Source: a virus
Virus record (IMG/VR): IMGVR_UViG_3300002145_000105
Location: 1-34,331 of that record
DNA length: 34,331 nucleotides
Strand: one strand, 5' to 3'
Shown here: positions 14,985 to 30,518 of the stretch, piece after piece
How the letters are laid out: each line of letters begins with the position of its first letter
Position numbering within the stretch: position 1 is the stretch's first letter
Program-made: the position numbers and the translations under genes
Notes under the pieces: model-generated
Databases searched by the model: none
The model's input: the letters and a program-made list of their open reading frames with translations, nothing else
What the model was told of the DNA's origin: nothing

Positions 14985-17816
14985 ATGATTGAACAAATCC
15001 AAGCTCTGGCCGAACTAGAAAGAATCGGCATCACTTTCCAGCCAACATCTGAGAATGAGGTTCGCCTAAAATGCCCTGTTCATGAAGATAAATCGCCGAG
15101 CTTGAGCCTAAACACAGAGACGAACCTTTGGATTTGCCAAGCTTCGTCCTGTAAGGCAAAAGGGGACATCATCAGCCTCCTCTCTCACTTCCTAAAGTGT
15201 AGCAGAAATACAATCAAAGATGATCTTAGCACTCGATATGACCTAAAGCAGGTCAAAGAGATTCGGCCCGAGACCATCGAAAAATACCACGCAGAAGTTT
15301 TCCACGCCGGACCACTCCTGCAAGCCCTTCGAGACCGTGGAGTAACTGATGAGATGCTCTACTACTCACGGATAGGGTTCTGGGCTGGGCGAATCACCAT
15401 TCCGGTGCGAGACTTGCAGAGTCGTGTCGTAAACGTTCGACGCTACCTCCCAGGTGCGCCAGGACCTGAGAAGTTCAAGAACACTCCAGGGTACGGTAAG
15501 CCTCAGCTTTATCAAATTGAGGACACTCAGTTCCCTGACATCTGGCTATGCGGCGGCGAGCTAAAAGCTCTGGTCGCAGGCTTCCTGCTCCGGCCTAACA
15601 ACTCGGGTGCCCTTGCAGTATCGGCAGGCGAGGGTGCATGGGTCTCAGAATGGAACCAGCTCTTCGTGGGTAAGCGCGTCTATATTTGTATGGACGCTGA
15701 CAAAGCGGGAGTCACAGCGTCTTACAAGCTCGCTATGCGGCTATACCGTACGTGTGAAGTCTTTATTATTAGGTTGCCACTGGACCTAGAAAAGCATCCA
15801 AAAGGTGATCTAAACGACTACATCGCTACTGAAAAGGCGACAGCTCAAGACCTTCTTCGTTTGCAAGAAGAAGCTGAGCCTTTTATCCCCAAAGAAGATG
15901 CAGAGATTCCAGATGAAGCCGTAGAGGTTCACGTCTCTGATGCGCTCAATCAGCACAATATCGGTAAGCGTGTGAGGTTCTCTGCTGTCGTCGCAATGAA
16001 GGCACAAGACCCACACTTGATCCCTAAAGAGGTGTCTTTCACGTGCTCTAAGAACGAAAAGAACTGCACGAGTTGTCCTCTATATCTTATTGAAGGACCC
16101 GATGACGACTCGCCCGCAAAGGTGACTCTTAGCCCAGTTTCGCAAGGGCTACTTTCGCTTATCGATACTCCTGCAAGTCAACAGCAGAACGGTATCGCCA
16201 GCGCCTTGCGAGTTCCTAAGTGTAGGTCTGTAGAGTTCTTTCCTCTTTCCTACAGTTCAGTACGGGATGTAAGACTTACTCCGATTCTATCTATCTCAGA
16301 ACAGTCTGGTAGTGACGTGCTTTTGCCAGGGTTCTGTGTCGACACAGAGATCGAGCTAAACTCTCCAAACATCTTTGAAGCTGCCCTTTGGCCTCATCCT
16401 AAAGACCAAAAGGCAACGCTTCTAATCTGCAAGGCAGAGCAGACCGCGGACTCCATGGTGAACTACGTCCCTAGAGACTTAGAAGATCTGGAAGTTTTCC
16501 AACCGAAAGAGTGGACTAAGGCGTCCTTGCAAGACAAACTAAAGAACATCTATGATGATCTAGTCTACAATGTGACGTCTATTCGCCAGCGACAAGACAT
16601 GCATCTTGTCATTGACTTGACGTTCCATTCAGTGCTGTTTTTCAAGTTCGATGGGCGTATCAGAAACGGTTGGTTGAATTCGCTAATCGTTGGCGATTCA
16701 TCACAAGGCAAGACAGAAGCTTCAAGCCTGCTGAAGGACCATTACGGTCTAGGCATACGAGTGGAGTGTAAGAACGCTTCACTTGCAGGTCTAGTAGGCG
16801 GGCTTCAGCAAATCGGAACTCGTTGGTTTGTATCATGGGGTATCATCCCTACACAAGACCGTCGTTTAGTAATCCTTGAAGAAGTGAAAGGTGCTCCTAT
16901 CGAGCTGCTCGGTAAACTTACGGATATGCGCTCTTCAGGCATTGCAGAGATTCCAAAGATCGAGCATCGGAAAGCTTCTGCAAGGACCAGGCTTCTATTC
17001 ATCAGTAACCCTCGCTCTACAAAACGGGTGACAGCTTATCCGTTTGGTGTATCTGCGATTACTGAGCTTATTGGAGGATTGGAGGACGTACGTCGTTTTG
17101 ATATCGCCTACATCGTTTCAGCAGATGAGGTTAGTGCGGAAGAGATCAACCGAAAAAATACTCTGAAAGAGGCTGTAGAACACAAGTTTACCTCTTCGCT
17201 CTGCCGTAGACTAATCCTTTGGGGCTGGACCCTTAGCCCTAATCAGATCGAGTTTAGCGACGAAGCAGTTGATGAGATTTTGCGAATCTCTAACGTCGCT
17301 TGTGAGAAGTTTACAGAAGCTATCCCGCTCATCGACCGAGGAACTGTACGTTTGAAACTAGCGAGGCTATCTGCGGCCCTTGCAGTTCGTACCTTCAGTT
17401 ATGAAGGAGATAAGCTGCGGATCCGAAAATGTCACGTAGAGACAGTCTGGGAGCTACTAGACGAAGTGTACTCCAAACCGTTGTTTGGGTACCTAGACTA
17501 CTCCCAAGCCCAAAAGCGGTCTTCTGTCATGGGGGACCGCTCTAAGATTGTCAACTTTATCAAAGACCTTCGCTATCCTTCTGGCTTCGCAGAAAACCTT
17601 ATGCTACAAGATGAGGTTGTTATGCAAGATATCATGGACTGGGAGGCTGTTGAAAAAGACCAAGCACACACGATTCTCTCTTTTCTGGTAAGAAATCGTG
17701 CGTTACACCGTAAGCGAAACTCCTACCAGAAAACAGCACCCTTTATCCAGCTGCTCAAAGAGCTGGAAGGAAAACTTTCAGAAGAAAATGAGAGAGAATC
17801 TAAATACGAAGGCTAG
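14985..17816 (+). CDS. Fused DNA primase (CHC2-TOPRIM) and MCM-like AAA+ helicase
   Basis: A 943-residue multidomain replication protein. Residues ~28-70 form a CHC2 zinc-binding domain (C30, H33, C51, C56). A TOPRIM domain follows, with the GGELKALVAG segment and the acidic motif MDADKAG (D237, D239). From about residue 325 there is an OB-like region with a Cys cluster (C354, C361, C364). The C-terminal half is an AAA+ ATPase: Walker A GDSSQGKT (570-577), Walker B LVILEE (628-633), then LTDMRSSGIAEIPK and a sensor segment RLLFISNPRS, which resembles the MCM order (start, DEF-type Walker B, KAG-type hairpin, ANP sensor). It would unwind DNA and prime synthesis at the fork. Phage primase-helicases usually carry a RecA-fold (DnaB/gp4) helicase, so the MCM-like half is unusual. 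Confidence 0.85.
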   Translation: MIEQIQALAELERIGITFQPTSENEVRLKCPVHEDKSPSLSLNTETNLWICQASSCKAKGDIISLLSHFLKCSRNTIKDDLSTRYDLKQVKEIRPETIEKYHAEVFHAGPLLQALRDRGVTDEMLYYSRIGFWAGRITIPVRDLQSRVVNVRRYLPGAPGPEKFKNTPGYGKPQLYQIEDTQFPDIWLCGGELKALVAGFLLRPNNSGALAVSAGEGAWVSEWNQLFVGKRVYICMDADKAGVTASYKLAMRLYRTCEVFIIRLPLDLEKHPKGDLNDYIATEKATAQDLLRLQEEAEPFIPKEDAEIPDEAVEVHVSDALNQHNIGKRVRFSAVVAMKAQDPHLIPKEVSFTCSKNEKNCTSCPLYLIEGPDDDSPAKVTLSPVSQGLLSLIDTPASQQQNGIASALRVPKCRSVEFFPLSYSSVRDVRLTPILSISEQSGSDVLLPGFCVDTEIELNSPNIFEAALWPHPKDQKATLLICKAEQTADSMVNYVPRDLEDLEVFQPKEWTKASLQDKLKNIYDDLVYNVTSIRQRQDMHLVIDLTFHSVLFFKFDGRIRNGWLNSLIVGDSSQGKTEASSLLKDHYGLGIRVECKNASLAGLVGGLQQIGTRWFVSWGIIPTQDRRLVILEEVKGAPIELLGKLTDMRSSGIAEIPKIEHRKASARTRLLFISNPRSTKRVTAYPFGVSAITELIGGLEDVRRFDIAYIVSADEVSAEEINRKNTLKEAVEHKFTSSLCRRLILWGWTLSPNQIEFSDEAVDEILRISNVACEKFTEAIPLIDRGTVRLKLARLSAALAVRTFSYEGDKLRIRKCHVETVWELLDEVYSKPLFGYLDYSQAQKRSSVMGDRSKIVNFIKDLRYPSGFAENLMLQDEVVMQDIMDWEAVEKDQAHTILSFLVRNRALHRKRNSYQKTAPFIQLLKELEGKLSEENERESKYEG

Positions 17817-18219
17817 AGCATTCCACAAGAAACTAGGACTCCTTACGGATTACCCTAGTTTTGATGGATACATGTTCACTACTTTGATGGGACCCGTGTT
17901 CAATGTCCTTACACAGTATGCTGAAAATGCAAAACACTCAGATGAGTTCATTGAACGACGAACTAGCCTCCTTGCTGAAGAGCTTGCAGAGTTTATGGAG
18001 GCCCTAGTTGATGGAGATCGGGAAAAGATCGCCAAAGAAGGTGCGGATCTCATGTACGTCATCGTCGGTACTTTAGATATTCTAGGTATCGATGCAGAAG
18101 CAGCGTTCGATTTAGTCCATAAGTCGAACATGACAAAGTCTTACGGATACGACATTACAAACCGAGATAAAGGACCGGACTATCAAGAGCCGGACATGAA
18201 GCAATGCATCATCAAGTAG
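17788..18219 (+). CDS. MazG-like nucleotide pyrophosphohydrolase
   Basis: A 143-residue all-alpha NTP pyrophosphohydrolase. The metal-binding signature is EExxE (E64, E65, E68 in AEELAEFME) followed by ExxD (E84, D87 in EGADLMYV), and the C-terminal segment SNMTKSYGYDI...KGPDYQEPD is typical of phage MazG-like and PRA-PH-like proteins. The enzyme would hydrolyse dNTPs or (p)ppGpp-type nucleotides and could remove unwanted canonical nucleotides. ATG 17788 is chosen because earlier in-frame codons are deep inside the primase gene; the overlap with the primase is 29 nt. It opens the nucleotide-metabolism run. Confidence 0.82.
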   Translation: MRENLNTKARAFHKKLGLLTDYPSFDGYMFTTLMGPVFNVLTQYAENAKHSDEFIERRTSLLAEELAEFMEALVDGDREKIAKEGADLMYVIVGTLDILGIDAEAAFDLVHKSNMTKSYGYDITNRDKGPDYQEPDMKQCIIK

Positions 18220-19022
18220 TCTCTACAACACAGATCTGGGAAGAAGCAGTTCAAGCGATCATGCACGAAGGCGGGGAAGTCCCGTCTCGCAATGGTCCCA
18301 CAAAAGAACTGCAAGGGTTACTGTTCCCGGAACTGGATCCAACAGCGCCTTTCATCTATACCCGAGGGATGAGTTTCAAGTACGCTTGTGGTGAGACTCT
18401 TTGGTACTTGATGGGGTCTGATCGGCTCCACTGGATTGAAAAGTTTGCACCTTCGTACGGCCGATTCAGTGATAACGGTAAGACGCTGAATGGTGCCTAC
18501 GGTCCTAAGATCCGAAAAGGTATCCCGATTGTAATCGCCATGCTGAAGCAAGACCCAGCTACTCGCCGGGCCGTAATCCCGCTTTACGACATGACAAATC
18601 TAGGGCAAGACTCCAAGGACATCCCGTGTACGTTACACTTGCAGTTCTTGATTCGCGGAAGTAAACTGTTCATGATGGTTCACATGCGCAGTAACGACTT
18701 GTTTCTTGGATTCCCCTACGATGTTTTCGCCTTCTCGGTTATTCAGTGCCTGATTGCAAAGTACCTTCACATTGAAGTTGGGACTTATGCACACTTTGTC
18801 GCTTCTGGACACCTCTACGTTTCTGACTTCAAGAAACTGGCCAACACGCCTCTGCAAACTCCTCCGCCAGACATGCCGTACCACTTCGTAGAGGATGGTG
18901 TTCTTCATGACATCAGCTCTCAGTATAATGACTTTGAAGCTGACGCAACAAAGCTTGAATGTGGGGATACGACAATCATGCCACCTATTTGGCGATGGCT
19001 TATGGAGGGCGCGGAGCTGTGA
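18204..19022 (+). CDS. Thymidylate-synthase-fold enzyme, probably a dCMP-type hydroxymethylase or methylase
   Basis: A 272-residue member of the thymidylate synthase/pyrimidine hydroxymethylase family. The nucleophile is Cys142 (IPCTLHLQF), the phosphate-binding Arg162 lies in HMRSND, and the late GHLY motif holds the conserved His and Tyr. At the base-recognition position, thymidylate synthases have Asn (E. coli N177, GLPFN); here it is Asp173 (GFPYDVF), as in T4 dCMP hydroxymethylase (GFRND), and the MRSND/GF context also matches T4 gp42. The family knowledge is that Asn favours dUMP and Asp favours dCMP. The E. coli Trp80 position appears to be Tyr. The product would be 5-hydroxymethyl-dCMP or 5-methyl-dCMP; dTMP remains possible. 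It overlaps the MazG gene by 16 nt and the kinase gene by 28 nt. Confidence 0.85.
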   Translation: MHHQVVSTTQIWEEAVQAIMHEGGEVPSRNGPTKELQGLLFPELDPTAPFIYTRGMSFKYACGETLWYLMGSDRLHWIEKFAPSYGRFSDNGKTLNGAYGPKIRKGIPIVIAMLKQDPATRRAVIPLYDMTNLGQDSKDIPCTLHLQFLIRGSKLFMMVHMRSNDLFLGFPYDVFAFSVIQCLIAKYLHIEVGTYAHFVASGHLYVSDFKKLANTPLQTPPPDMPYHFVEDGVLHDISSQYNDFEADATKLECGDTTIMPPIWRWLMEGAEL

Positions 19023-19474
19023 TTATCATTGAAGGGTCTGACCATCTTGGTAAGACTACTTACTCACAGAAGGTGCAGAAGAACGGGTTCAAATATCGTC
19101 ACATGAGTAAACCGGAACCAGACTTCGATTATCGAAGTTATTCTTGGGGAGGGAACTATGTGTTCGACCGGCATTTTCTTGGGGGCTACGTTTACGGATA
19201 TGTGTTAGAGCTGCATCCTGTAGTGCCAGATTTCACTGACGCTTTCCGCATGAACTGTGACTTATTGAAATCTTCTAAATCCCAACTTGTGATTATCTAT
19301 ACCACAGACTTGTCTTGGTACTCTGATCATCTAGATAAGGGTAAGCCGGAGATGTTCAACAAAGAGCAGATCATGGCGGCTAATGATGTTTTCCGTTGGC
19401 TGGCCCAACACTATCTGGCAAGAAGAAGTCTTGCCATCGACATCCGTAACGGGAAATTCTATAATGCTCATTAG
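18995..19474 (+). CDS. Deoxynucleoside monophosphate kinase-like P-loop protein
   Basis: A 159-residue thymidylate-kinase-like protein. The P-loop EGSDHLGKT is at residues 13-21, directly after a hydrophobic beta strand (AVIIIEG). A DR-type motif (VFDRHF) at about residue 57 matches the conserved DR(Y/W/H) of dTMP kinases, and a hydrophobic Walker-B-like strand (LVIIYTTD) follows. It is shorter than host dTMP kinases (about 210 aa), as is usual in phages. Located just after the TS-fold enzyme, it could phosphorylate the modified dNMP. ATG 18995 is favoured because it places the P-loop near the N-terminus as in homologues; ATG 18959 is an alternative. Confidence 0.8.
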   Translation: MAYGGRGAVIIIEGSDHLGKTTYSQKVQKNGFKYRHMSKPEPDFDYRSYSWGGNYVFDRHFLGGYVYGYVLELHPVVPDFTDAFRMNCDLLKSSKSQLVIIYTTDLSWYSDHLDKGKPEMFNKEQIMAANDVFRWLAQHYLARRSLAIDIRNGKFYNAH

Positions 19475-19844
19475 GGAAAAATTGATGAATCGCCTCCTCC
19501 GCTTGCAGTCGATGGTCCATACAGACTGCAAGCGGAAGCTCGTTATCGCCATAACAGACCAACATGAGGCCCCTAAAGTGAATCGTGCCAAAGGGGAGTG
19601 TAAGAATATTGTCGGCGGTTGTGGCTGTACCCATGCAGAAGAGCAGTTCCACTACGATGATAGAGTCCAAGTAGTTGGGGTATCGTACTGGCCTTGCCTG
19701 GAATGTGCAACTCACATGTTGAAAGTGTTCCCTAACCTGGAGGCAGTTTTCTATCTTCACGGAGCAGAGCATCACCCAGATGGCCCTGAAATTCTTAGAC
19801 ACAATGGAGTCAAATGCGAACTCTTCATAACGGCCACCTCTTAG
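19464..19844 (+). CDS. Zinc-dependent dCMP/cytidine deaminase-like enzyme
   Basis: A 126-residue member of the cytidine/deoxycytidylate deaminase superfamily. The zinc and catalytic motif HAE is at residues 57-59 (CTHAEEQ, proton shuttle Glu59) and the second zinc motif PCLEC at 77-81 (C78, C81). Extra cysteines (C22, C46, C53, C55) recall the second zinc site of some phage dCMP deaminases. Typical dCMP deaminases convert dCMP to dUMP; in a phage carrying a dCMP-modifying enzyme it may instead remove unmodified dCMP. ATG 19464 is preferred over the more upstream ATG 19383, which lies deep inside the kinase gene. It overlaps the polymerase gene by 31 nt. Confidence 0.82.
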   Translation: MLIREKLMNRLLRLQSMVHTDCKRKLVIAITDQHEAPKVNRAKGECKNIVGGCGCTHAEEQFHYDDRVQVVGVSYWPCLECATHMLKVFPNLEAVFYLHGAEHHPDGPEILRHNGVKCELFITATS

Positions 19845-21700
19845 CTGAGACTGTAGAGGACCTGCCGAATACAGCAGGCTACAAAACGCTCTTCCTCGAC
19901 TTTGAGACAAGCGGTTTAGATCCTTACATGGGATCTATTGTCTGCGGAGTAGCATTAGTTTGCGATTCAGAGAAGCAGGCTATCTATGTCCCTGTAAATC
20001 ACCATTTTGGACCTAAGCTCCCTAAAGAAAACTTCGACCGCTGGTTGGAAGAGACCTTCCAAGGTAAAGAACGATGGGTGAATCATAACGTCAAGTTTGA
20101 CGCCCATTTCGCAACAAAGAACGGTGTGCCAGTTGAAAAGATTCCTCAGCTGATTGACACTTTACCTCTTTCGCGTATGCACTACACCAATCGTAGAACA
20201 TACGGATTGAAACCTCTTTGCAGAGATTGGCTTAGAATGCCGATGGATGAAGAGCGTGCCCTACAACCTTATTTCAAACAGTACGGGAAGAAGTTTGGAC
20301 ATGCTCCTGTGCCTTCAGATATTGAGGCTCCGTACGCTTGCATGGACGTAATCGGAAACCGTCGGTTGATGTCCTTCTTAGTTCAAAAGCGAGACCCAAG
20401 ACTGAAGCTAGTTTGGGATATTGAGAATCAGCTAACGTCTACGTTGTTTCGTATGGAGCAACGCGGGATGCGTATTGACATTCTTGAAACTAAGAAACAG
20501 TACCTGAAGACCTTACGAATTCTTGTGGAGCTTCAAGAGCAGCTTGCAGAATTCACTAACGGTGAGGAGTTTGTAGACTCGAACAAAATCCTTTTGGAGA
20601 TGCTCGTTATTCAATGGGGTCTACCTATTGTCGGGTACAATGAGCAAGATGATGGAAGAAAGACCCCTTCTTTCGACAAAGAAGCTTTGGCCCTGTATGC
20701 AGTCCATCCGCAAGTGCTTGGCGAACCTAAGCTGAAACGGCTTATTGAACTCATTAGAGAGTATCGCCACCACTCTCAGTTGAGTTCTTTGTACCTGGAA
20801 CCGTACCAGAACCTTGCAGATGAGAACGGTGACCTACACACGAGTTACACCCAAGTGATTCGTACTGGACGGATGTCTGCAAAGCATCCTAACGCTCAGC
20901 AACTCAATAAGTGGGCGAAGAGCCTCATTGTTCCTCGCCCTGGACGTGCGTTTATATCTGCAGACGCTAGTCAGTTGGAGTATCGCTGGATTGGGGATAC
21001 AATCGAGGAAGAGAAAATCATCCATGCCTACCAGACGGATCCTAAAACAGACTTCCACACGCTTGCAGCACAGTTGATTCAGTCTTCCCGTAGCTCGGGT
21101 AAGACCATGAACTTTACTCTTAGTTTCGGTGCCGGTAAGGCTAAGGTTATTTCGTACTTGAAAAAGGACAAAGAGATTCTGGAGCGAATCAGCAAGCAGA
21201 CTTCTGACCCTAAAGAGTTTGAGGAACTCTGCAAGAAGGAGGCAGAGCGAATCTGGAGCACTTATCACCAAGAGTTCCCTAACCTGCACAAAGAGTCGAA
21301 AGCTGCAGAAGGGGCTGCTCGTAAGAACGGCTATATCGTGAACAAGTTTGGTCGCATTCGCCACTTGTTCCGTGATGAAACCTACAAGGCTTTCAACACG
21401 TACATTCAAGGTACAGCCAGTGACTATGTCAAATCTAGACTCGTTGCCCTGGACACGCAAGAGTTTTGGGATCTAGGGGTTTGGCCTCTTATCACCGTCC
21501 ATGACGAGATTGTTATGGAAGGTGATGTTGAAGCGATCGAAGATCCTTATGTTCAAAAACGGGTGCGAGAAGTCTTACAAGAGTGTCCTATCCCTTGTAA
21601 GATCCCACTTCTTTGGGATATCGGTTCTTCCCGCCTCAACTGGCGACAGGCTACGGTCAACTCAGACCATAACAAAAACGACGACCCTGTGCCGACCTAG
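19814..21700 (+). CDS. Family A (T7/Pol I-type) DNA polymerase with 3'-5' exonuclease
   Basis: A 628-residue replicative polymerase. Exonuclease motifs: ExoI FLDFETSGLD (D29, E31), ExoII VNHNVKFDAHF, ExoIII YACMDVIGNRRL. Polymerase motifs: A ISADASQLEYRW (D384), B RSSGKTMNFTLSFGAG (R426, K430), C TVHDEIVME (H563, D564, E565). There is no 5' nuclease domain, as in T7-type enzymes. At the position of E. coli Pol I Phe762 (T7 Tyr526) it has Phe434, predicting discrimination against dideoxynucleotides; the Pol I Tyr766 position is Phe438. It begins inside the deaminase gene and ends shortly before a GC hairpin, so it closes this operon. Confidence 0.95.
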   Translation: MRTLHNGHLLAETVEDLPNTAGYKTLFLDFETSGLDPYMGSIVCGVALVCDSEKQAIYVPVNHHFGPKLPKENFDRWLEETFQGKERWVNHNVKFDAHFATKNGVPVEKIPQLIDTLPLSRMHYTNRRTYGLKPLCRDWLRMPMDEERALQPYFKQYGKKFGHAPVPSDIEAPYACMDVIGNRRLMSFLVQKRDPRLKLVWDIENQLTSTLFRMEQRGMRIDILETKKQYLKTLRILVELQEQLAEFTNGEEFVDSNKILLEMLVIQWGLPIVGYNEQDDGRKTPSFDKEALALYAVHPQVLGEPKLKRLIELIREYRHHSQLSSLYLEPYQNLADENGDLHTSYTQVIRTGRMSAKHPNAQQLNKWAKSLIVPRPGRAFISADASQLEYRWIGDTIEEEKIIHAYQTDPKTDFHTLAAQLIQSSRSSGKTMNFTLSFGAGKAKVISYLKKDKEILERISKQTSDPKEFEELCKKEAERIWSTYHQEFPNLHKESKAAEGAARKNGYIVNKFGRIRHLFRDETYKAFNTYIQGTASDYVKSRLVALDTQEFWDLGVWPLITVHDEIVMEGDVEAIEDPYVQKRVREVLQECPIPCKIPLLWDIGSSRLNWRQATVNSDHNKNDDPVPT

Positions 21701-21853: not shown

Positions 21854-22192
21854 ATGAACACACAAGAAAACGACCTGGAATATGCTCTTGCTGCACTACG
21901 CTACTACCGTGACCTTCTTGAAGGAGGCGCTGAAGCAAGAATCTCGCTGCTGAAACGCGAGATGGCCCCCATTGTCAGGGCGATCCACAAGATCCGCAGA
22001 GACAAAGAAGAGGCCCCAGAACACATTGCAAACCTTCGCAACAAGATGACCCAGCTCCACTTAGGGTTTTCAAACAAGACAAAAATCTCACGCTTGACAC
22101 GCTTGCGCGCCGAAACCGAACAGTTGGAAGGGGTCCTTAGTGAAGAAGCCCTAATGGGTATCATGGAGGAACTCGATTGTTTGGACAACTAA
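21854..22192 (+). CDS. Hypothetical helical protein, 112 aa
   Basis: First gene of a new transcription unit, with a leader that ends in A/C-rich sequence (CCGCAAACCTACC) and has no Shine-Dalgarno. The product is almost entirely helical and charged, likely coiled coil (SLLKREMAPIVRAIHKIRRDKEEAPEHI, RLTRLRAETEQLEGVLSEEAL). I do not recognise a family. It overlaps the ligase gene by 16 nt, which suggests co-translation. Confidence 0.7.
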   Translation: MNTQENDLEYALAALRYYRDLLEGGAEARISLLKREMAPIVRAIHKIRRDKEEAPEHIANLRNKMTQLHLGFSNKTKISRLTRLRAETEQLEGVLSEEALMGIMEELDCLDN

Positions 22193-22959
22193 CCAAACTG
22201 CGACCCAAAGTTCATACTTACGATGGTCAGGACTATGTCCGGGCTTTTCGTAAGTATGACGGGCATCGCATCGGGGTGGTCAGTGACCGTGGTGTGCCTT
22301 TCTTCTTCGGTCGCAAGTCCCACGAACTGCTGCTTGGCGAGTTTGACTTTGCAGAAGCTCTGTTCAAGCTGCCTCACGGCACCATCTTGGATGGGGAACT
22401 GTTCTTACCTGGAGGTAGGTCTACTGACGTTCCTCACTATATCGCACAAGAGAAGCCGGGACTTGTTTATCGAGTCTTTGGAATCTACCAGTGGGGTGAC
22501 CAACTCATTAGGCACTGGGAAGACTACGACCGAATCTGCAAGGAAGCAAGGTTCAACGTTCAAGAGCCTGAGAAAATGCGAGACCGAGAAGAGTTACTAG
22601 ACTTAGCCAAAGAACTAGGTATCGAAGGTTTTGTTCTCAAGAACTGTCCTAGCCGAGAGTGGTATAAGTTGAAGCCGACTGAAACTGTCGATGCTGTTGT
22701 TGTCTGCCCTCTTTACGGGACTGGTCGCAACACCTACCGAGTAGGCTCAGTCGAGGTGACTTGCAGAATCAATGGGCGGCTACTCGCTGGTACCGTGAAA
22801 CTGCAAAGCGCAAAAGACCGAATTCCCTTCAAAAGTGACGCTTATGTTGGGCGTGTCTTAGAACTCCAACATGAGGGTATCACAAAACACAACCGATTCA
22901 AGTTCGCCCGTTTTATGCGATGGCGTGACGACAAACCTGCGGAGGAGTGCTACCAATGA
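22177..22959 (+). CDS. ATP-dependent DNA ligase
   Basis: A 260-residue nucleotidyltransferase/ligase. Motif I is KYDG with the AMP-accepting Lys26, motif III-like LVYRVFGIYQW lies near residue 105, motif IV is EGFVLK and motif V WYKLKP. The final ~75 residues (VDAVVVCPLYGTGRN to FMRWRDDK) form the OB-fold expected for a minimal phage ligase. It would seal nicks during replication or repair. The start is TTG 22177: GGAGGA at 22165-22170 is well spaced for it, and no in-frame ATG exists before the conserved motif I. Overlaps the next gene by ATGA. Confidence 0.88.
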   Translation: MFGQLTKLRPKVHTYDGQDYVRAFRKYDGHRIGVVSDRGVPFFFGRKSHELLLGEFDFAEALFKLPHGTILDGELFLPGGRSTDVPHYIAQEKPGLVYRVFGIYQWGDQLIRHWEDYDRICKEARFNVQEPEKMRDREELLDLAKELGIEGFVLKNCPSREWYKLKPTETVDAVVVCPLYGTGRNTYRVGSVEVTCRINGRLLAGTVKLQSAKDRIPFKSDAYVGRVLELQHEGITKHNRFKFARFMRWRDDKPAEECYQ

Positions 22960-23345
22960 AAACCTTGCTCCTTATTCGTGGAATCCCAAGTTCCGGCAAG
23001 AGTGAACTTGCCCGAGCTTTGGAAGGCCTCGGTGCAAAATGGTTTGAAGCCGACAAGTTTTACCCTGACAAGTTTGAACTTGGTCTTCTTGAAGAAGCGC
23101 ATCAATGGTGTGAAAAAGGTGTCAAAAAGGCGATGAAAAAGAGCCATCCTTTCATTGTCGTCTCTAACACTTTTATCAAGATTTGGTGGATGAGTCCTTA
23201 TAAAGAGCTGGCTGAAAAGTATGGCTATCGACTCCAAATCGTGGTCAAAGAGAAGCACCATAAAGGTCGCACTAAGTGGCCGATTCCTAAAGCAAAGCTC
23301 ACTGAGTACATTGACGGGTTCGAGTCCCGTCCCTGGAGTTCCTAA
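22956..23345 (+). CDS. P-loop (polynucleotide-kinase-like) kinase
   Basis: A 129-residue single-domain kinase. The Walker A GIPSSGKS is at residues 9-16, a FEADKFY motif (D35) follows, and the strand plus motif VVSNTFIKIWWMSPYKELAEKYGY matches the VVDNTN...W...PY..LA pattern of N4BP2/T4 PNK-type P-loop kinases. It sits one base before a gene whose product resembles the helical domain of 5-hydroxymethyl-dU DNA kinases, where P-loop kinase and helical domain are normally linked; the two may together phosphorylate hydroxymethylated bases in DNA (inference). ATG 22956, preceded by GGAGGA, is chosen over GTG 22947. Its 3' end contains a sequence identical in form to a tRNA T-arm (23314-23330). Confidence 0.78.
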   Translation: MKTLLLIRGIPSSGKSELARALEGLGAKWFEADKFYPDKFELGLLEEAHQWCEKGVKKAMKKSHPFIVVSNTFIKIWWMSPYKELAEKYGYRLQIVVKEKHHKGRTKWPIPKAKLTEYIDGFESRPWSS

Positions 23346-24172
23346 TGGGAAAAACTAACTACACCAATGGGAGTGCGACAGTAGATGACCTATTCTACTG
23401 GATGAAAGAACGTCACAAGATTTACCTTGCTAAAAAGGTGGGTGAACCTTGGCCTTGGACAGAAGACCCGATCCTGCAAGAGTGGAAGTTCACCAACGTG
23501 TTCCGCCAGTTGGATAAGGGTACGGTCGCTTTGATTGATATGTTGGCGGGAGCGACTAACTACGAGTTGATCCTCGCCAATACCGTTTGGTATCGCTTGT
23601 TCAACCGTTATGAGCATGCGACTGACATTGGTTTCTGCAACTCTTTTGAGGAGCTTCAATCACGTATGCGTGCTGTGCGTGATTCCGGTAAGAAGGTCTT
23701 TACGGGAGCTCACATGACGTGGGCTCCAGCCAAAGTCTGCAAGGTTGAAGCTTACCTTGGAAGCTGTAAACTCTTCTTTGATGGGCACGGTAGAGACTAC
23801 TGTATGAACATCACAGATGAAGGCTTTGTGCAAGAACTCAAATACGCCTTTGACCAGCTCTTAGCCATGAAAGTACCAGGGATTGGTCCTTTCATTGCTT
23901 ATGAGATCGTAAGTGATCTGCGCTGGACTTTGCTTACAAAAGCACATGACATCAACACTTGGGCCAATATCGGTCCAGGCTGCAAACGTGGGTTGGAACG
24001 TCTTGGGATGGAAGTACATCTTGACAGCCTGCGACATTTACTTTCAATAACCCCAGACCTAGGTCGTCCCCTAGAACTTCGTGAAATTGAGCACTCCCTT
24101 TGTGAATTCGACAAATACCAACGAGTCAAAACGGGCGCCGGAAGGCCTCGAGGAAGATATCAACATGAGTGA
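23345..24172 (+). CDS. HMUDK helical-domain-type / aGPT-pyrophosphorylase-like DNA modification protein
   Basis: A 275-residue protein whose N-terminal segment FYWMKERHKIYLAKKVGEP and PWPWTEDPILQEWKFTNVFR (about residues 17-55) is the hallmark of the family called 5-hmdU DNA kinase helical domain, grouped with putative alpha-glutamyl/putrescinyl-thymine pyrophosphorylases. A helix-hairpin-helix-like VPGIGPFIAYEIVSDLRW lies near residues 175-193. Proteins of this group work in phage pathways that build hypermodified thymidine from 5-hydroxymethyluracil after replication. Its ATG shares a base with the stop of the P-loop kinase. Whether it is an enzyme or a DNA-reading partner of the kinase cannot be told from sequence. 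Confidence 0.78.
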   Translation: MGKTNYTNGSATVDDLFYWMKERHKIYLAKKVGEPWPWTEDPILQEWKFTNVFRQLDKGTVALIDMLAGATNYELILANTVWYRLFNRYEHATDIGFCNSFEELQSRMRAVRDSGKKVFTGAHMTWAPAKVCKVEAYLGSCKLFFDGHGRDYCMNITDEGFVQELKYAFDQLLAMKVPGIGPFIAYEIVSDLRWTLLTKAHDINTWANIGPGCKRGLERLGMEVHLDSLRHLLSITPDLGRPLELREIEHSLCEFDKYQRVKTGAGRPRGRYQHE

Positions 24173-24398: not shown

Positions 24399-24780
24399 AG
24401 ACGGTATTCTCGTCTTGAAGAACGATACTGAAACAATCGAACAGCTGGACTTTGTTGGGGATCTTATCCTACGACATCCTAAAAGCCGGGATTTCTTTAT
24501 CGAAGAGTACCAAGCGGGTTACTTAGTATCTCGCTTCGGTCTTATCACTAACCCGGAGATTTTCAATACAAAAGATGAGGCTGAATTCGGGTTGACCTGT
24601 GCAGTAGCGACTTTAGACCTTGTAGAGGGTAAGTCACTTTCCAGCTCTTTCACCAAAGATAATGGTGAACAGATTTTCATTCTACGTTCAAAACTAGGAC
24701 ACATCTATGTCTATTCAAAAGGAAGTGGTCGCTATGGCTACACAAAGGATCTTAATGAAGCCTGGACAAAAACCGATTGA
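24376..24780 (+). CDS. Hypothetical protein, 134 aa
   Basis: GTG 24376 is favoured since GGAGGT at 24360-24365 is well placed; ATG 24349 in the same frame would lengthen it by nine residues. The sequence begins STYLLVEDGILVLKND and is mixed alpha/beta with no Cys pairs or membrane segment. The C-terminal part (FILRSKLGHIYVYSKGSGRYGYTKDLNEAW) is aromatic and basic. No family recognised. Its 3' end overlaps the glycosyltransferase-like gene by 47 nt. Confidence 0.6.
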   Translation: MSTYLLVEDGILVLKNDTETIEQLDFVGDLILRHPKSRDFFIEEYQAGYLVSRFGLITNPEIFNTKDEAEFGLTCAVATLDLVEGKSLSSSFTKDNGEQIFILRSKLGHIYVYSKGSGRYGYTKDLNEAWTKTD

Positions 24781-25519
24781 GGTTTTTATCCCTACACGGG
24801 GACGTCGAGACAATCAGATCACCATCAATGAACTGGACTGCTCCAAGTTCAAAGTATGGGTTGTGCATGAACCTGAAGAGCGCCCATATGACTTGCCGGA
24901 TCATGTAGAGTCATTGGTCTACCACGGCGGAGGCGGTCTCAGCGCCAAGCGGGACTTCATTTACGCTTTCGCCAAAGATCGAGATGTCATCTGTGTCCAG
25001 ATTGATGATGATTGCAGGATCTACCGCCGAGAGGATGGTGCTGGCAGCTATCTGCAAAAGCAGAGCGACATCAGCGAACTGCTTTGCATGATTCAGTTGG
25101 CCGTTAGTGAAGGATACCTCCACGGAGGCATTAGCCAACGAGCTGGAAACAATCGCGAACCTGCAAACATGAAGGAGAACGCGAAAGTAGTATGCTTCAT
25201 GTGGCATTACGGAGTAGACGTCTTCTTTGGCGAGACTCTTGTTATGGCCGATTACAACACGACTCTCGCTTTGCTGACTTCGGGCTACCCAAATCTTGTG
25301 TTTTTCGAGTGGTGTTGCAACCAGAGCTCTGGATACAAAGGTGGATGCGCTCTTTACCGTACAAAAGAGATGGTGAAACAAGTTGCCGAGTACCTAGAGA
25401 AGAAGTACCCTGGGATTGTCACAGCGGAGGTGAAGTACACCAAAGGTAAAGGAGTCTTTGGAGGGAAAAGAACTGACGTCCGAGTTCAGTGGAAAAAGGC
25501 TTTCAAGGAGTCTCGCTGA
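24734..25519 (+). CDS. GT-A-fold glycosyltransferase-like protein (TET-associated glycosyltransferase type)
   Basis: A 261-residue putative nucleotide-sugar glycosyltransferase. The N-terminal IEVFIPTRGRRDNQIT strand-loop, GGGLSAKRDFIYAFA segment and acidic IDDDC (D91-D93, the DxD-type metal site) give a GT-A Rossmann half. GGISQRAGNNR, MADYNTTLALLTSGYPNLVF and GGCALYRT plus the end motif TDVRVQWKKAF match my recollection of the TET-associated glycosyltransferase family, proposed to put sugars on oxidised or hydroxymethylated bases in phage DNA. The start at ATG 24734 has AGGAAG nearby; ATG 24707 and 24755 are alternatives. With a hydroxymethylase-like enzyme upstream, glycosylation of 5-hydroxymethylpyrimidine is the natural hypothesis. 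Confidence 0.72.
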   Translation: MATQRILMKPGQKPIEVFIPTRGRRDNQITINELDCSKFKVWVVHEPEERPYDLPDHVESLVYHGGGGLSAKRDFIYAFAKDRDVICVQIDDDCRIYRREDGAGSYLQKQSDISELLCMIQLAVSEGYLHGGISQRAGNNREPANMKENAKVVCFMWHYGVDVFFGETLVMADYNTTLALLTSGYPNLVFFEWCCNQSSGYKGGCALYRTKEMVKQVAEYLEKKYPGIVTAEVKYTKGKGVFGGKRTDVRVQWKKAFKESR

Positions 25520-26065: not shown

Positions 26066-26108
26066 TTTACACTAAAGTCCTTGCCCTTGCCTGCCCTTGT
26101 GTTATAAT
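26066..26108 (+). promoter_or_regulatory. Sigma70-like promoter with upstream TTTAC-N2-TAAA element
   Basis: TTTACACTAAA (26066-26076), -35 TTGCCC (26081-26086), 16-nt spacer, consensus TATAAT (26103-26108). The predicted transcription start falls at about 26115, which is the A of the ATG of the next gene, so the mRNA may be leaderless. Confidence 0.7.
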
Positions 26109-26114
26109 AAAGGC

Positions 26115-26378: not shown

Positions 26379-26695
26379 AACTGTTTGAGCTTCGTGACAG
26401 AGGAACCTTTATCGAAATTTACATGACGAAGATCCGTCCAGTAAGTCTGCGAGAACGGGGACTAATGCGTCGCGCCGGGTGGAGAGTTGAAGATCCCCTC
26501 TACACCATGACACGACTAGACCTTAGTGAAACCATGATGTCTGAGTATCAAGCCGATGTTGCCAACTCTCGCACTTTTGGCGTGGCCTTCAAATGGATTG
26601 TCAACAACTGGGATATGCTGACTTCCGGAGATCTTGTCTGTGTAGAGTATATCCTTGGGGAGAGAGCTGAACCTAAGCCCACGGAGTTGTTTTGA
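26366..26695 (+). CDS. Hypothetical protein, 109 aa
   Basis: ATG 26366 is preceded by AAGGAG, a good Shine-Dalgarno, and lies inside the end of the previous gene. The product is mixed alpha/beta with a basic first half (RPVSLRERGLMRRAGWRVE) and no Cys pairs or membrane segment. The segment LMRRAGWRVEDPLYTMTRLDL looks like a short beta-alpha unit. No family recognised. The stop TGA overlaps a TTG start (TTGA) for a tiny hydrophobic reading frame. Confidence 0.62.
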   Translation: MCEVKLFELRDRGTFIEIYMTKIRPVSLRERGLMRRAGWRVEDPLYTMTRLDLSETMMSEYQADVANSRTFGVAFKWIVNNWDMLTSGDLVCVEYILGERAEPKPTELF

Positions 26696-26766
26696 TTTTC
26701 CAAGCCGCCCTGATTGTTTTCACCATTTTAGCCGTCGCACTGTTCTTTTGGGAGCTTTGGAAGTGA
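26692..26766 (+). CDS. Single-span membrane microprotein, 24 aa
   Basis: A 24-codon frame starting TTG 26692, coupled to the upstream stop (TTGA) and to the downstream start (GTGA at 26763-26766). GGAG at 26683-26686 is a possible ribosome site. The peptide is one hydrophobic helix (FQAALIVFTILAVALFFW) ended by ELWK, ideal for a one-pass inner-membrane peptide. It fills a 67-nt space that would otherwise be a gap in a tightly overlapping operon. Confidence 0.5.
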   Translation: MIFQAALIVFTILAVALFFWELWK

Positions 26767-27011
26767 ACGCATCAGAAAAGCTGGCCCGGAGGATTTTAGA
26801 AGAGTGCCCTGACCTGACACATGTCACCTTCTACCCTAAGCGGAACTCTAAAAGCGACCTAGACTCATCATGGGAGGCTACGTTTTCAAGACTTCCTCTA
26901 CCAAGTTACGTCAAAATCAGCAGCGACTACTCTATCTCTGCTTGTTTGAAAGCAAAGACTCTCCTTTTCAGTAAGGTAGACTTAGCCCACTACAAAATCA
27001 AACCACAATGA
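26763..27011 (+). CDS. Hypothetical protein, 82 aa
   Basis: Read from GTG 26763, which overlaps the microprotein stop (GTGA) and has GGAG about 8 nt upstream. The longer frame back to 26655 runs antiparallel in sense to the better-supported neighbour genes and is not used. The product has a helical start (ASEKLARRILEECPDL) and beta-rich remainder with no recognised motif. It overlaps the next gene by ATGA-type spacing (27008). Confidence 0.58.
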   Translation: MNASEKLARRILEECPDLTHVTFYPKRNSKSDLDSSWEATFSRLPLPSYVKISSDYSISACLKAKTLLFSKVDLAHYKIKPQ

Positions 27012-27415
27012 AATTCCATCAAAAACTTGAACAGCGGATCAAAAAAGAGTTCCCTGACGTTGCCTCCGTTCGTTGTCTGCTAGGTGTCCAAAAGGACTCT
27101 CGTTTTGTCGACTACTATGACAAAAACTCCAATAAGCATACCATCCATTTTCATGTAGACGTCGACAAGGCGCTGAAAATGGAGAAGTGGTTCTACTTGA
27201 CAGGCTGGGACCATGTTGTGGAGTTTGATCCTAAAGAACTTGCCAAGATTGAAGGCGAGGACTACGTCACTGTGTCGGTGTCCCGTCTGCAAGAGCTAGT
27301 TGGAGAGCTTGAAAAGGCTAAAGAACTGCTTGCAACAGCTCTGATCATGTACCCAGGCTTGAAAGTCTACGAAGGCTGGTACAATGAATACGTCAATCGG
27401 GTGGCGAACAAATGA
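27008..27415 (+). CDS. Hypothetical protein, 135 aa
   Basis: ATG 27008 overlaps the previous stop. The first ~65 residues alternate strands and a helix with His-rich HTIHFHVDVDKAL; the C-terminal half is a helix (VSVSRLQELVGELEKAKELLATALIMYPG) typical of a dimer or scaffold coiled coil. I do not recognise a family. The stop overlaps the glycosyltransferase-like ATG (ATGATGA). Confidence 0.62.
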   Translation: MKFHQKLEQRIKKEFPDVASVRCLLGVQKDSRFVDYYDKNSNKHTIHFHVDVDKALKMEKWFYLTGWDHVVEFDPKELAKIEGEDYVTVSVSRLQELVGELEKAKELLATALIMYPGLKVYEGWYNEYVNRVANK

Positions 27416-28293
27416 TGAAAATCGCCCTTATCACCAAAGGTCACATCCCGCGCATCAAAGCGATGGACTGGATTCAGGACCTTGGACGTGAAATCATCAT
27501 CTTTGTCCACAACGACATCGATATTGTGAAACTCCGCCAAGTTTGGCCGAATCATACGTATGTCGCCCACCAAATCAATGAAGGAATCAGCTCTATTGCG
27601 CTGATTAGAGACTTTGTTGACGACTACATGGGCGATTGGTACATCACGGTTGATGATAACGTAGAAAAACTCACTGGACTTAGTCCTTTCAGCGACTGGG
27701 ACCCGAAAGAGTGGAACTTTGACTTCAGGGAGTTTGAGAAAGTACTCACTCCGGACGAAATCAATGAGTACCTTGACGAACTGTATGAACAATGCATCTA
27801 TTTTGGCAACACAATGGGTGGATTCACCGACATGCGAAACGGCTTTTTTCGCAAAACCAAGTGGAACTACTGGAACTACATCAAGACTCAGGTCGCCGTC
27901 GTCAAAGGTGGCATCCCTTGGTGTCAATGGAGACCAATAGTTTCTTCTGACCTCGTTAGGTCAGTTTCAGAAGTTGTTCAAAACGGATCCATTTGCATGA
28001 ATAAATGGGTCTGTACTCACAAAGCATTCTACCAGGAGGGTGGAATCGGCTCTTTGGCCGATCGCCTCCCCACGATGCTGCAAACTTATGATAGACTCCT
28101 TGAACTCTACCCTGACCTATTGAAGGTCAAACACTCCTCGACACATGGCAGACCAAAACTCTACTTCGCAAAGCAATCCTGGAACACAGTCAATCGTTGG
28201 CGTAAAGAAAAGGACTGGACAGATCGTACCATTCGACCATCAGAGAATTCATTCGGCGGTGCAAAAGGCTATTGGGACTCCACTCCCTTCTAA
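27412..28293 (+). CDS. Second GT-A-type glycosyltransferase-like protein
   Basis: A 293-residue protein with a GT-A-like N-terminal half: IALITKGHIPRIKAMDWI, the strand GREIIIFVH, then ALIRDFVDDYMGDWYITVDDN, where D81-D82-N83 stands in the DxD metal position after a hydrophobic strand. Later motifs (MGGFTDMRN, AVVKGGIPW, CTHKAFYQEGGIGSLADR) recall phage DNA-modification glycosyltransferases, but similarity to the 24734 gene is limited to general layout. It may add a second sugar or act on another base. Its last 149 nt are also the first part of the ribonucleotide reductase gene in another frame, an unusually long overlap. Confidence 0.6.
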   Translation: MMKIALITKGHIPRIKAMDWIQDLGREIIIFVHNDIDIVKLRQVWPNHTYVAHQINEGISSIALIRDFVDDYMGDWYITVDDNVEKLTGLSPFSDWDPKEWNFDFREFEKVLTPDEINEYLDELYEQCIYFGNTMGGFTDMRNGFFRKTKWNYWNYIKTQVAVVKGGIPWCQWRPIVSSDLVRSVSEVVQNGSICMNKWVCTHKAFYQEGGIGSLADRLPTMLQTYDRLLELYPDLLKVKHSSTHGRPKLYFAKQSWNTVNRWRKEKDWTDRTIRPSENSFGGAKGYWDSTPF

Positions 28294-30142
28294 CGTCTTA
28301 GTGTCCATGGTTGGCCACCTCAACACTGTTTTCAAAGGCCAAACTCCATCCGTTGAGGAGATCAGTGACGTCGTTGAACGTCTTCTTATCAAGTACAGTT
28401 ATCCTGACGCTGCAATTCGATTCGCCAAGTACCGAGAAAGTCGCTCCCGCCTGCACGAGGTTCGTCCGGATCCTTCAGCGCTTACCGATTACATCATTCA
28501 CTCTAAATACACTCGAGAAGGTGAAAACTGGATGGCCGCAGTTGGGCGAGTTGAAGGAATGCACATTCGCCGCTTTCCGCATTTCGAAGAGGAGATCCGC
28601 TCAGCTTTCAACTTTGTTAGAGAACGCCGAGTTCTTCCGTCGATGCGCTCCCTCCAGTTTGGAGGAGTGGCTATCGAAGTCAACCATGCGCGAATGTATA
28701 ACTGTTCTTTCGCCAACATCACAGACCGAAGCTTCTTCAGCAACTTGATGTTTCTTCTTCTATCGGGGTGCGGAGTGGGTTACTCGATTGTCAAAGCCCG
28801 AGGTCTGTTCTCCTACCCTGATAAGGCGGAAGTTCGCCACCATCAAGTTGAGGATACGATCGAAGGCTGGGCGGACGCTATCGATTTTCTTATGGACCCT
28901 CGCTACTACACCGAGTTCGACTACAGCCAGATCCGCCCAGAGGGATCGCCTCTAGTTGTCGGTGGTGGATTGGCTCCTGGCCACCTTCCGTTGAAAATCG
29001 CTATTGAGAAGATCCGGCCACTGCTGAAGGGGACTCTCACCGCATTTACGGTCCACCGAATCTGCTGCATCATTGCTGAGGCCGTTGTCGCTGGCGGAGT
29101 TCGACGAAGCTCGCTGATGTGTCTCTTCCGTGACGAAGAGACGAAGGTCTGCAAGGCTAACACTACGTGGTATAGGGATATGCCTGAACTCGCGATGGCG
29201 AACAACAGCTATGTTGTCTATCCTGGCGAAGAGGTGGATCGTGAACTCTTCGACCACATGAAGAACTATGGCGAACCTGGGGTCGTTCACATGGAACCGG
29301 GCTGGGGGACTAACCCTTGCGGTGAAATCGGTCTCCACCCTGATGATGGAACTTTCGCTTTCTGCAATCTTACCGAGATTGTTGGAGAACCTGATGAGGA
29401 CACCGTCTGGGCTGCCGCTTTCATTGGTACGCTCCAGGCGACTTACACCGATGTTGGCGTCCCGGTCAGTGACAAGTATCTTCTCGGCATCTCGGTAACC
29501 GGGATCTTGGACAACCCCGATATGAAGCTCTTCGGGTGGAAACCGTTGATTCATACGGTCAACAAAGAGTGGGCGGCAAAGTTTGGTATCGAACCTACGG
29601 AGCGACTCACTACCGTGAAGCCGTCGGGAACTGCAAGCCTTCTGGTCGGGTGCTCCAATGGCGCCCACCCTGCTTTCGCCAAGAGAACCATCCGTAGGAT
29701 TATCGCGAACGCCAACGAACCCGCCGCCATCGAATTCGCCGCCGCCAATCCTCATGCAGTGGAAACTCGGCCAAACGGTCGCATGGCTCTCCTCTTCCCG
29801 ATGTACTCGGAAGGTCTTACGAAAAAGGACCTTTCGGCTGTTCAGCACATGGACATCGTGAAGCGAATCGGCCAAGAGTGGGTGACTCATCCGCATAATG
29901 TTTCGGCCACTATCACTGTGCGGATGGATGAATGGGACGATGTCTACGAATGGGTGAAGGCGAATCGCCCACGAGGCATGAGCTTCTTGGCGGAGTTCCA
30001 CTCGTATGAGGGCGCTCCGTTTAGTGAGAATGATACGTTGTGGTATGAGTTGGTTTCTAAGTATCGTCCGGTGCGATACTCTGCCCATGCTACGGATCTT
30101 GGTTCGGCTTGCGAAGGAGGAAGCTGTGAAATTCTACATTAG
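28145..30142 (+). CDS. nrdJ: Class II (B12-dependent) ribonucleotide reductase
   Basis: A 665-residue adenosylcobalamin-dependent reductase making deoxyribonucleotides. Residues ~18-110 form an ATP-cone (VKKRTGQIVPFDHQRIHSAV to FAKYRESRSRLHE). Active-site cysteines are C187 (YNCSF), the radical Cys392 in NPCGEI and C407 (FAFCNLTEI). The C-terminal CEGGSC (C656, C661) is the redox-active tail used for re-reduction. GGVRRSS and KPSGTASLLVG are also family motifs. Class II enzymes are oxygen-independent and common in marine phages. There is no alternative start after ATG 28145 before the ATP-cone, so the 149-nt overlap with the upstream gene appears real. Base composition is more GC-rich than its neighbours, a hint of separate origin. 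Confidence 0.93.
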   Translation: MADQNSTSQSNPGTQSIVGVKKRTGQIVPFDHQRIHSAVQKAIGTPLPSNVLVSMVGHLNTVFKGQTPSVEEISDVVERLLIKYSYPDAAIRFAKYRESRSRLHEVRPDPSALTDYIIHSKYTREGENWMAAVGRVEGMHIRRFPHFEEEIRSAFNFVRERRVLPSMRSLQFGGVAIEVNHARMYNCSFANITDRSFFSNLMFLLLSGCGVGYSIVKARGLFSYPDKAEVRHHQVEDTIEGWADAIDFLMDPRYYTEFDYSQIRPEGSPLVVGGGLAPGHLPLKIAIEKIRPLLKGTLTAFTVHRICCIIAEAVVAGGVRRSSLMCLFRDEETKVCKANTTWYRDMPELAMANNSYVVYPGEEVDRELFDHMKNYGEPGVVHMEPGWGTNPCGEIGLHPDDGTFAFCNLTEIVGEPDEDTVWAAAFIGTLQATYTDVGVPVSDKYLLGISVTGILDNPDMKLFGWKPLIHTVNKEWAAKFGIEPTERLTTVKPSGTASLLVGCSNGAHPAFAKRTIRRIIANANEPAAIEFAAANPHAVETRPNGRMALLFPMYSEGLTKKDLSAVQHMDIVKRIGQEWVTHPHNVSATITVRMDEWDDVYEWVKANRPRGMSFLAEFHSYEGAPFSENDTLWYELVSKYRPVRYSAHATDLGSACEGGSCEILH

Positions 30143-30518
30143 TTGCGGAGTGGAGTATGTCGAGTGGGCGAAGGCTATTCGGATTCAACTCTTGGACAAA
30201 GGTTATGAGGTAATCAGCGATTGGATGCTGGATCCAAAGCTGGGCTACGGAGTGTCCACTGAAGAGGAGCTGGAAGGGAAAGCGCTCAAAGATATGCGGC
30301 AAGTTGCTGAGTGCGATGTCCTTGTTACTAACGGTTCTTCTGCTCATGGTGGGGCCCACGTCGAGCTCGGGCTGGCGTTAGCGTACGGTAGGCGGGTGCT
30401 GTTGGTGGGGGCCCCTAGCAACGTGTTCCACCGCCTTGTGCGGCCCTGTGGCTCGTTGCAGGCCGGGCTGGCGGGTTTGGCCCCTATGGGGGGCCCTGGC
30501 GAGCCTACGGGCCTGTAG
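30126..30518 (+). CDS. Nucleoside 2-deoxyribosyltransferase-like protein
   Basis: A 130-residue Rossmann-like protein. GTG 30126 has AAGGAGG at 30114-30120 and overlaps the reductase stop by 17 nt. Matching features of the deoxyribosyltransferase/DNPH1 group: MKFYISCGVEYVEWA, GYEVISDWM, AECDVLVTN and the catalytic-type Glu in GGAHVELGLALAYGRRVLLVG, then the NVFHR end. It could trim or exchange deoxyribonucleosides, or clear (modified or host) deoxynucleotides. The last ~25 residues (RPCGSLQAGLAGLAPMGGPGE) are encoded by GC-rich DNA containing GCCCCTATGGGG-type elements, so the original C-terminus may be extended or overwritten. Confidence 0.75.
   Translation: MKFYISCGVEYVEWAKAIRIQLLDKGYEVISDWMLDPKLGYGVSTEEELEGKALKDMRQVAECDVLVTNGSSAHGGAHVELGLALAYGRRVLLVGAPSNVFHRLVRPCGSLQAGLAGLAPMGGPGEPTGL

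Follow-up and report, generated by a model that had tools for sequence, protein, structure and literature searches.

Predicted sugar decoration of hydroxymethylcytosine in an uncultured phage, and an HMUDK_hel protein common to sugar- and phosphate-adding phages

Introduction

Does a phage that carries parts of two DNA hypermodification routes actually combine them? The question is raised by a 34-kb fragment of an uncultured phage record (IMG/VR IMGVR_UViG_3300002145_000105; the whole stretch of 34,331 nucleotides is called the window here), in which nucleotide-metabolism, hydroxymethylase and glycosyltransferase genes at 17788-30518 surround a protein of the HMUDK_hel / aGPT-Pplase1 family (PF18723; hereafter HEL). 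A preliminary description took these genes to make a hypermodified pyrimidine and saw in them a possible mixture of the T4 type of pathway (hydroxymethylcytosine plus glycosyltransferases) with the ViI/M6 type (hydroxymethyluracil plus a kinase). We conclude that the stretch is a genuine nucleotide and DNA modification cassette. Our preferred reading, which we consider probable, is that it makes DNA with glycosylated 5-hydroxymethylcytosine (5hmC), HEL serving the decorating enzyme, a TET-associated glycosyltransferase (TAGT; PF20691). From the genes present, the route would most likely be T4/T6-like (5hmC plus sugar), supplemented by HEL as a single additional part and not mixed with the kinase arm. 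L-numbered names below are comparison phage loci or contigs.

Results

A modification cassette with a recurrent gene order

We judged Pfam calls against curated cut-offs and used PHROGs as a second profile set. By these profiles, chance is excluded by the scores of the MazG/PRA-PH protein, the thymidylate synthase (TS)-fold protein, the family A polymerase, HEL, the TAGT, and the ribonucleotide reductase (RNR; Table 1). The open reading frames (ORFs) named in the preliminary description are present where it placed them, and its MazG-like hydrolase, TS-fold enzyme with a dCMP-type residue, family A polymerase, and HMUDK-helical-type protein all stand, each above its curated cut-off. By megablast, window positions 12000-34331 gave 0 matches against 50,697 phage records. 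A gene order recurs, in whole or in part, among relatives: primase, MazG, dNMP kinase, deaminase-like protein, polymerase, ligase, TS, HEL, TAGT, a further gene, RNR, and a deoxyribosyltransferase-like protein. Unlike in that order, the TS gene follows MazG in the window and in Manatee Spring phage MW202657.

The hydroxymethylase is predicted to be of cytosine type

The best PDB match of the TS-fold protein is MilA, a CMP 5-hydroxymethylase, with thymidylate synthases behind it at 5e-20, and the catalytic residues Cys142 and Glu64 are present. The position that reads the base, where Asp goes with cytosine and Asn with uracil (PMC5175136, PMC6400193), is occupied by Asp173 (codon 18720-18722; motif PYDVF), which aligns without gaps with MilA Asp186 and with the Asn of thymidylate synthases. 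It also corresponds to Asp179 of T4, both lying ten residues past the Ser of a shared RSND motif; we counted the equivalence from this motif instead of using the automatic alignment, which put T4 Asp179 one column off. Asp139, three residues before Cys142, corresponds to T4 Asp145, on which hydroxylation depends (PMC6400193), and its equivalent is kept in all the aligned TS proteins of HEL phages, uracil-type ones included. Ser163 and Arg121 (Arg121/122 in the sequence) are the residues of deoxyribose-type enzymes, a Ser/Arg pair that favours deoxyribose over ribose (PMC5175136). Among 27 other aligned TS proteins, Asp stands at the deciding position in L006, L007, L024, L004, and L005 (PYD) and in T4 gp42, and Asn (GAN or similar) in M6 and the remaining HEL phages. 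As a single query the window protein found no relative in IMG/VR. These residues predict that it makes 5-hydroxymethyl-dCMP, i.e., that it is cytosine-type; the synthesis of a hypermodified pyrimidine, as first proposed, is strongly supported, with cytosine as the predicted base.

A glycosyltransferase in place of the kinase

The preliminary description listed a P-loop kinase next to HEL; we reject this protein as the kinase of the M6/ViI pathway. The window has no PF18748 kinase, which the same search detects in M6 and ViI, and no match to an M6-type kinase profile. The P-loop protein resembles polynucleotide kinases: its family spans 585 phage records, several of which adjoin an RNA ligase or are named polynucleotide kinase, and its gene directly follows the window's own ligase. 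A search against PDB sequences found nothing. The missing kinase matches and the polynucleotide-kinase relatives rule it out as the HMUDK kinase, and it probably serves repair and not base modification. The amino-acid:DNA transferase PF18724 had no match among the ORFs scanned of this 34-kb fragment.

With the kinase arm absent from the window, the decorating enzyme is therefore taken to be the TAGT. This GT-A-type protein scores 33.5 bits against a PF20691 cut-off of 27.5 bits, its PHROG (phrog_842) is named "beta-glucosyl-HMC-alpha-glucosyltransferase" (HMC, hydroxymethylcytosine), and D100 and D101 of its DDD motif are invariant in the alignment; PDB sequences gave no match. The nearest functional family is the T2/T6 HMC glucosyltransferase (PMC13216743), and by family the window enzyme would add a sugar to 5hmC or glycosyl-hmC DNA.

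Two GT-A proteins had been proposed. The TAGT is one; the other, encoded just before the RNR, has a weak partial PF20691 match below cut-off and a DDN motif, and is a possible second glycosyltransferase. Its one relative, from L077, shares about 30% identity with it and likewise precedes the RNR, and the window protein found none in IMG/VR as a single query; profile comparison with the TAGT by hhalign gave a probability of 2%, and its structure model has a pLDDT of 32. Its gene and that of the RNR overlap by about 150 bases in two frames (28145-28293), so that either the RNR start or the 3' end of the preceding gene may be misplaced. In other cytosine-type phages this slot holds different proteins, among them a family (L024, L006, L073) whose motif we read as GT-B-like, with no Pfam match over cut-off. 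Between HEL and TAGT, L073 (10006-12539) also has genes for a UDP-glucose dehydrogenase, an NAD-dependent epimerase, and an FkbM methyltransferase; these fit a supply of nucleotide sugar and suggest that the phage makes such a sugar itself and that the sugar on its DNA is methylated.

HEL is predicted to have a DNA-glycosylase fold

A HEL model built from 74 sequences reached a pLDDT of 94 and a pTM of 0.91. After structural realignment of Foldseek candidates, HhH-GPD DNA glycosylases come first and make up most of the list (MjOgg: Z 10.0 over 175 residues at 4.2 Å; AGOG: Z 9.8), and the queuine-salvage protein DUF2419 is also among the near neighbors. The model thus predicts an HhH-GPD DNA-glycosylase fold. 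Asp202, found in at least 90% of the 74 rows, lies by eye at the expected site of the catalytic Asp after the HhH, and an invariant Phe183 occupies the position that we read, also by eye, as that of the catalytic Lys of bifunctional glycosylases. Searches against PDB sequences found nothing for HEL. The window protein is about 33% identical to M6 HEL and only about 35% identical to the best annotated-phage matches among the matches listed; bacterial and archaeal genomes, when scanned, yielded just two loci, one of which, in a Robiginitomaculum metagenome-assembled genome, has the same gene order. Because of this fold and the comparison of loci that follows, we infer that HEL may recognize the hydroxymethylated base, or flip it out, on behalf of the decorating enzyme, whichever that is; excision is a less likely role.

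HEL loci keep the base type and change the decorating partner

IMG/VR scans and local profiles together yielded 166 HEL loci. An M6-type kinase occurs in 30 and a TAGT in 63, both together in none, and neither in 73; the 50 whole records show the same pattern (kinase 17, TAGT 20, both 0). In the group with neither, 25 loci share a protein cluster directly downstream of HEL that matches PF00534 (2e-7) and is a GT-B glycosyltransferase; another cluster, in 18 loci, has a weak PF00534 match. HEL is thus often followed immediately by a GT-B-like gene in these phages, as at L101:9822-11150 and L165:10660-11697.

HEL mostly lies within 1.2 kb of its kinase or TAGT gene (56 of 64 cases for TAGT). M6 gp54 is the PF18748 protein (5-hydroxymethyldeoxyuridine [5-hmdU] DNA kinase) and gp55 the PF18723 protein; in Bacillus phage SBSphiC a single frame of 652 aa holds both HEL and the kinase, and in ViI the two lie at distant places.

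A tree of 105 HEL proteins requires 13 changes of the kinase/TAGT label and a single change in the cytosine/uracil type of the hydroxymethylase, the cytosine-type rows forming one group (12 rows, SH-aLRT 98). Cytosine-type and uracil-type phages differ at 22 HEL positions, including Gln55 (13/15) in place of an otherwise common Glu, and only two weak positions differ between kinase and TAGT partners. A Fisher test on the exclusivity of kinase and TAGT (p 1e-7) was dismissed as proof because the loci are not independent; the 13 changes on the tree are the better argument. Across the loci compared, HEL thus appears as a modular protein common to phages predicted to add sugars and phages predicted to add phosphates.

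Cytosine-type relatives include a kinase branch

We found 15 contigs with both an Asp-type TS and HEL, of which 10 (the window included) have a TAGT, 4 an M6-type kinase, and 1 neither. Asp-type TS and M6-type kinase occur together in the full records of L068/L069, L070, and L143, and the kinases of L068 and L143 pass the PF18748 cut-off; in L069, HEL lies at 8998-9873 and the kinase at 14713-15849. L143 (10059-16764) adds an amino-acid:DNA transferase (PF18724, 7e-16), a pyridoxal phosphate enzyme, and a radical SAM protein, and radical SAM proteins also occur in L069 and L070. This combination of enzymes therefore predicts that relatives of the window phage carry a kinase-activated hypermodified cytosine. 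We found no description of a 5hmC DNA kinase in the literature searched, which lacked the principal papers on thymidine hypermodification and on phage DNA glycosyltransferases. A true mixture, cytosine hydroxymethylase with M6-type kinase, is found in these relatives and not in the window, which has the kinase pathway's helical protein and a TAGT in the kinase's stead.

Other genes of the window

The remaining predictions fared unevenly. Alone, the dNMP kinase has a weak PHROG match and no Pfam match over cut-off, and the deaminase likewise has no Pfam match of its own over cut-off; both gain from relatives in the same gene order. The deaminase relative in L068 (1e-4) is itself a PF00383 dCMP deaminase (2.8e-8), and the window protein is a probable dCMP deaminase by this relationship; against PDB sequences it gave chance-level APOBEC matches only. 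The MazG/PRA-PH protein, found at the same place in relatives, is a candidate dCTP remover like T4 gp56, its substrate being inferred. The reductase is an RNR with an ATP cone, possibly of the proposed class II, whose insertion domain gave a weak match (0.007). The deoxyribosyltransferase-like protein falls under the Pfam cut-off, and its relatives follow the RNR in L024, L007, and L071. Its faint PDB similarity to the CMP N-glycosidase 4jen (0.06), taken with the MilA-like TS, raises the possibility that the two act on the nucleotide pool as a pair like MilA and MilB.

Table 1. Predicted genes of the modification cassette (positions in the window)
Feature	Position	Strand	Evidence
MazG/PRA-PH-type nucleotide pyrophosphohydrolase	17788..18219	+	PF01503 5e-14, PF03819 4e-5; same place in relatives
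TS-fold pyrimidine hydroxymethylase, predicted dCMP type	18204..19022	+	PF00303 2e-26; MilA 4e-34; key residues
dNMP-kinase-like P-loop protein	18980..19474	+	PHROG thymidylate kinase 0.0014; relatives in same gene order
Zinc deaminase-like protein (HAE...PCxxC)	19383..19844	+	Motif; L068 relative
Family A DNA polymerase with 3'-5' exonuclease	19814..21700	+	PF00476 3e-39, PF01612 4e-9
ATP-dependent DNA/RNA ligase	22177..22959	+	PHROG ATP-dependent DNA ligase 3e-25; not listed in the preliminary description
Polynucleotide-kinase-like P-loop protein	22947..23345	+	PF13671 (AAA_33) 2e-7
HMUDK_hel / aGPT-Pplase1 family protein (HEL)	23345..24172	+	PF18723 8e-42; predicted HhH-GPD DNA-glycosylase fold
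TAGT, GT-A type, DDD motif	24707..25519	+	PF20691 5e-8; phrog_842 9e-24
Possible second glycosyltransferase (WYITVDDN motif), slot before RNR	27412..28293	+	PF20691 0.037, below cut-off
RNR with ATP cone	28145..30142	+	phrog_367 1e-84; PF03477 3e-10
Nucleoside 2-deoxyribosyltransferase-like protein	30006..30518	+	PF05014 2e-4, below cut-off

Outside the cassette, an SNF2-type helicase lies with Pam3 gp32-like and gp34-like proteins at 9839-14941. Phage MW202657 has a similar helicase/replication block and an Asp-type TS, and no HEL, TAGT, or M6-type kinase. Near the right end of the window, short repeated units (RASREMS..., SRELSRDL...) fill overlapping frames at 32731-33055 and 33911-34132; these are probably tandem repeats rather than genes.

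Discussion

We propose the following order of events. MazG and the deaminase-like protein would lower dCTP and feed dCMP and dUMP into the pathway; the TS-fold protein, judging by its catalytic residues, would make 5-hydroxymethyl-dCMP; and the dNMP kinase together with a host kinase would raise this to the triphosphate, which the phage polymerase would incorporate into DNA. After replication the TAGT, by its family, would put a sugar on the hydroxymethyl group or on a first sugar, and the 27412-28293 protein may add another. HEL, as structure and comparison suggest, would bind the hydroxymethylated base, probably flipped out, and present it to the decorating enzyme or pick the sites for it, that enzyme here being a TAGT instead of a kinase.

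Several points weigh against this proposal. All the functions are predictions, sequence does not reveal the sugar or its linkage, and genes may be missing from a 34-kb fragment. For HEL, Foldseek alone gave no significant neighbor, and a Z of about 10 is only moderate for a helical protein. T4 glycosylates its 5hmC without HEL, so HEL is dispensable for sugar transfer in general. Finally, the match between HEL and base type may be plain descent, since the cytosine-type phages are one clade and a single lineage could by itself give the one change of base type; the repeated switches of decoration escape this objection.

HEL might instead be an active base-excision glycosylase that removes unmodified or wrongly modified pyrimidines, from host or under-modified phage DNA, and for that reason tracks base identity. 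The fold of the model, the placement of Asp202, and the association of HEL with base type and not with decoration would all fit such an enzyme. The invariant Phe183 at the catalytic Lys position does not, nor do the shared frame with the kinase in SBSphiC and the usual closeness of HEL to a kinase or TAGT gene, and we consider active excision unlikely.

We give still less credence to a 5hmC-DNA kinase pathway in the window, in which the P-loop protein and HEL together phosphorylate 5hmC and the glycosyltransferases act on the product or independently. The genes of the two proteins overlap by one base, the P-loop motif is intact, and kinase and HEL are joined in SBSphiC. Against this stand the missing PF18748 and M6-type profile matches, the polynucleotide kinases beside RNA ligases among the nearest phage relatives of the P-loop protein, and the position of its gene directly after the ligase; by phmmer, moreover, no other cytosine-type HEL phage has a homologue.

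Much the same doubt attaches to a route by which the deaminase converts 5-hydroxymethyl-dCMP from the Asp-type TS to 5-hydroxymethyl-dUMP, so that the final DNA would carry glycosylated 5-hydroxymethyluracil. A deaminase-like gene does lie near the TS, and most of the HEL phages found are uracil-type. The route is indirect, given that Asn-type enzymes make 5-hydroxymethyl-dUMP directly, and the 22 positions that set HEL of the cytosine clade apart from uracil-type HEL speak against it. Moreover, dCMP deaminases commonly accompany dCMP hydroxymethylases, for example in T4.

That the glycosyltransferases act on a non-DNA target such as the capsid or the host envelope is very improbable: phages do carry such enzymes, and the TAGT assignment is by family alone, but in function its nearest kin are the HMC glucosyltransferases of T2 and T6 (PMC13216743), and the gene sits close to HEL in most cases.

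Beyond the preferred reading of a cassette for glycosylated 5hmC, we tentatively offer a wider one that may well prove wrong: that the "5-hmdU DNA kinase, helical domain" family is no kinase part at all but a general hydroxymethylpyrimidine reader or base-flipper, with uracil- and cytosine-reading forms, combined with a kinase, a GT-A, or a GT-B enzyme. The window would then represent the cytosine form with a glycosyltransferase, and L069, L070, and L143 the cytosine form with an M6-type kinase, to which L143 adds an amino-acid:DNA transferase; these sister phages would build a kinase-activated hypermodified cytosine not yet described. If this is true, the two known decorations of hydroxymethylated phage DNA, sugars on C and kinase-activated groups on U, can be exchanged for one another around a DNA-glycosylase-fold protein common to both. 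HEL would then be expected to bind hydroxymethylated bases and to shift where TAGT or kinase acts, and cytosine-type kinase phages to contain modified cytosines that are new. Bases of this kind are relevant to how phages evade restriction and CRISPR, and to cytosine-modification chemistry, as reagents.

Comparison with known systems

Glycosylated 5hmC and TAGT are already known. In the literature searched, which did not include several key papers, we found no description of a cytosine-type hydroxymethylase with HMUDK_hel, nor of a swap of kinase for glycosyltransferase around HEL.

T4, T2, and T6 resemble the window in a dCMP-type TS hydroxymethylase with the same key residues, a TAGT family enzyme, a candidate dCTP-removing hydrolase, a dNMP kinase, and a deaminase-like protein. 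Unlike them, the window has no match to the alpha- or beta-glucosyltransferase families. It further differs from T4 in having HMUDK_hel, in a TS much nearer to MilA than to gp42, and in a family A polymerase. With the thymidine hypermodification systems of M6, ViI, and phiW-14 the window shares HMUDK_hel, whereas its hydroxymethylase is cytosine-type (Asp) and theirs uracil-type (Asn), and a TAGT takes the place of their PF18748 kinase.

Pelagiphages combine TS, aGPT-Pplase1, and TAGT-type genes in one region, reported as thymidine hypermodification (PMC9599517). As in the window, hydroxymethylase, HEL, and TAGT-type genes lie together near PolA; the window differs in its cytosine-type hydroxymethylase. 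The cultured Brevibacterium phage LuckyBarnes (NC_047851, L240) likewise has HEL and TAGT, with TS, two TAGT, and HEL genes in a row and no M6-type kinase in the stretch read. Its TS, unlike that of the window, carries Asn where the base is read (motif GINSF); this predicts dUMP as substrate, contrary to its designation as a dCMP hydroxymethylase (PMC6588365). The closest solved relative of the window TS remains MilA, the CMP 5-hydroxymethylase of mildiomycin synthesis, with which it has the cytosine Asp in common; where MilA has Ala176 and Lys133, the window protein has the Ser163 and Arg121 of deoxy-specific enzymes.

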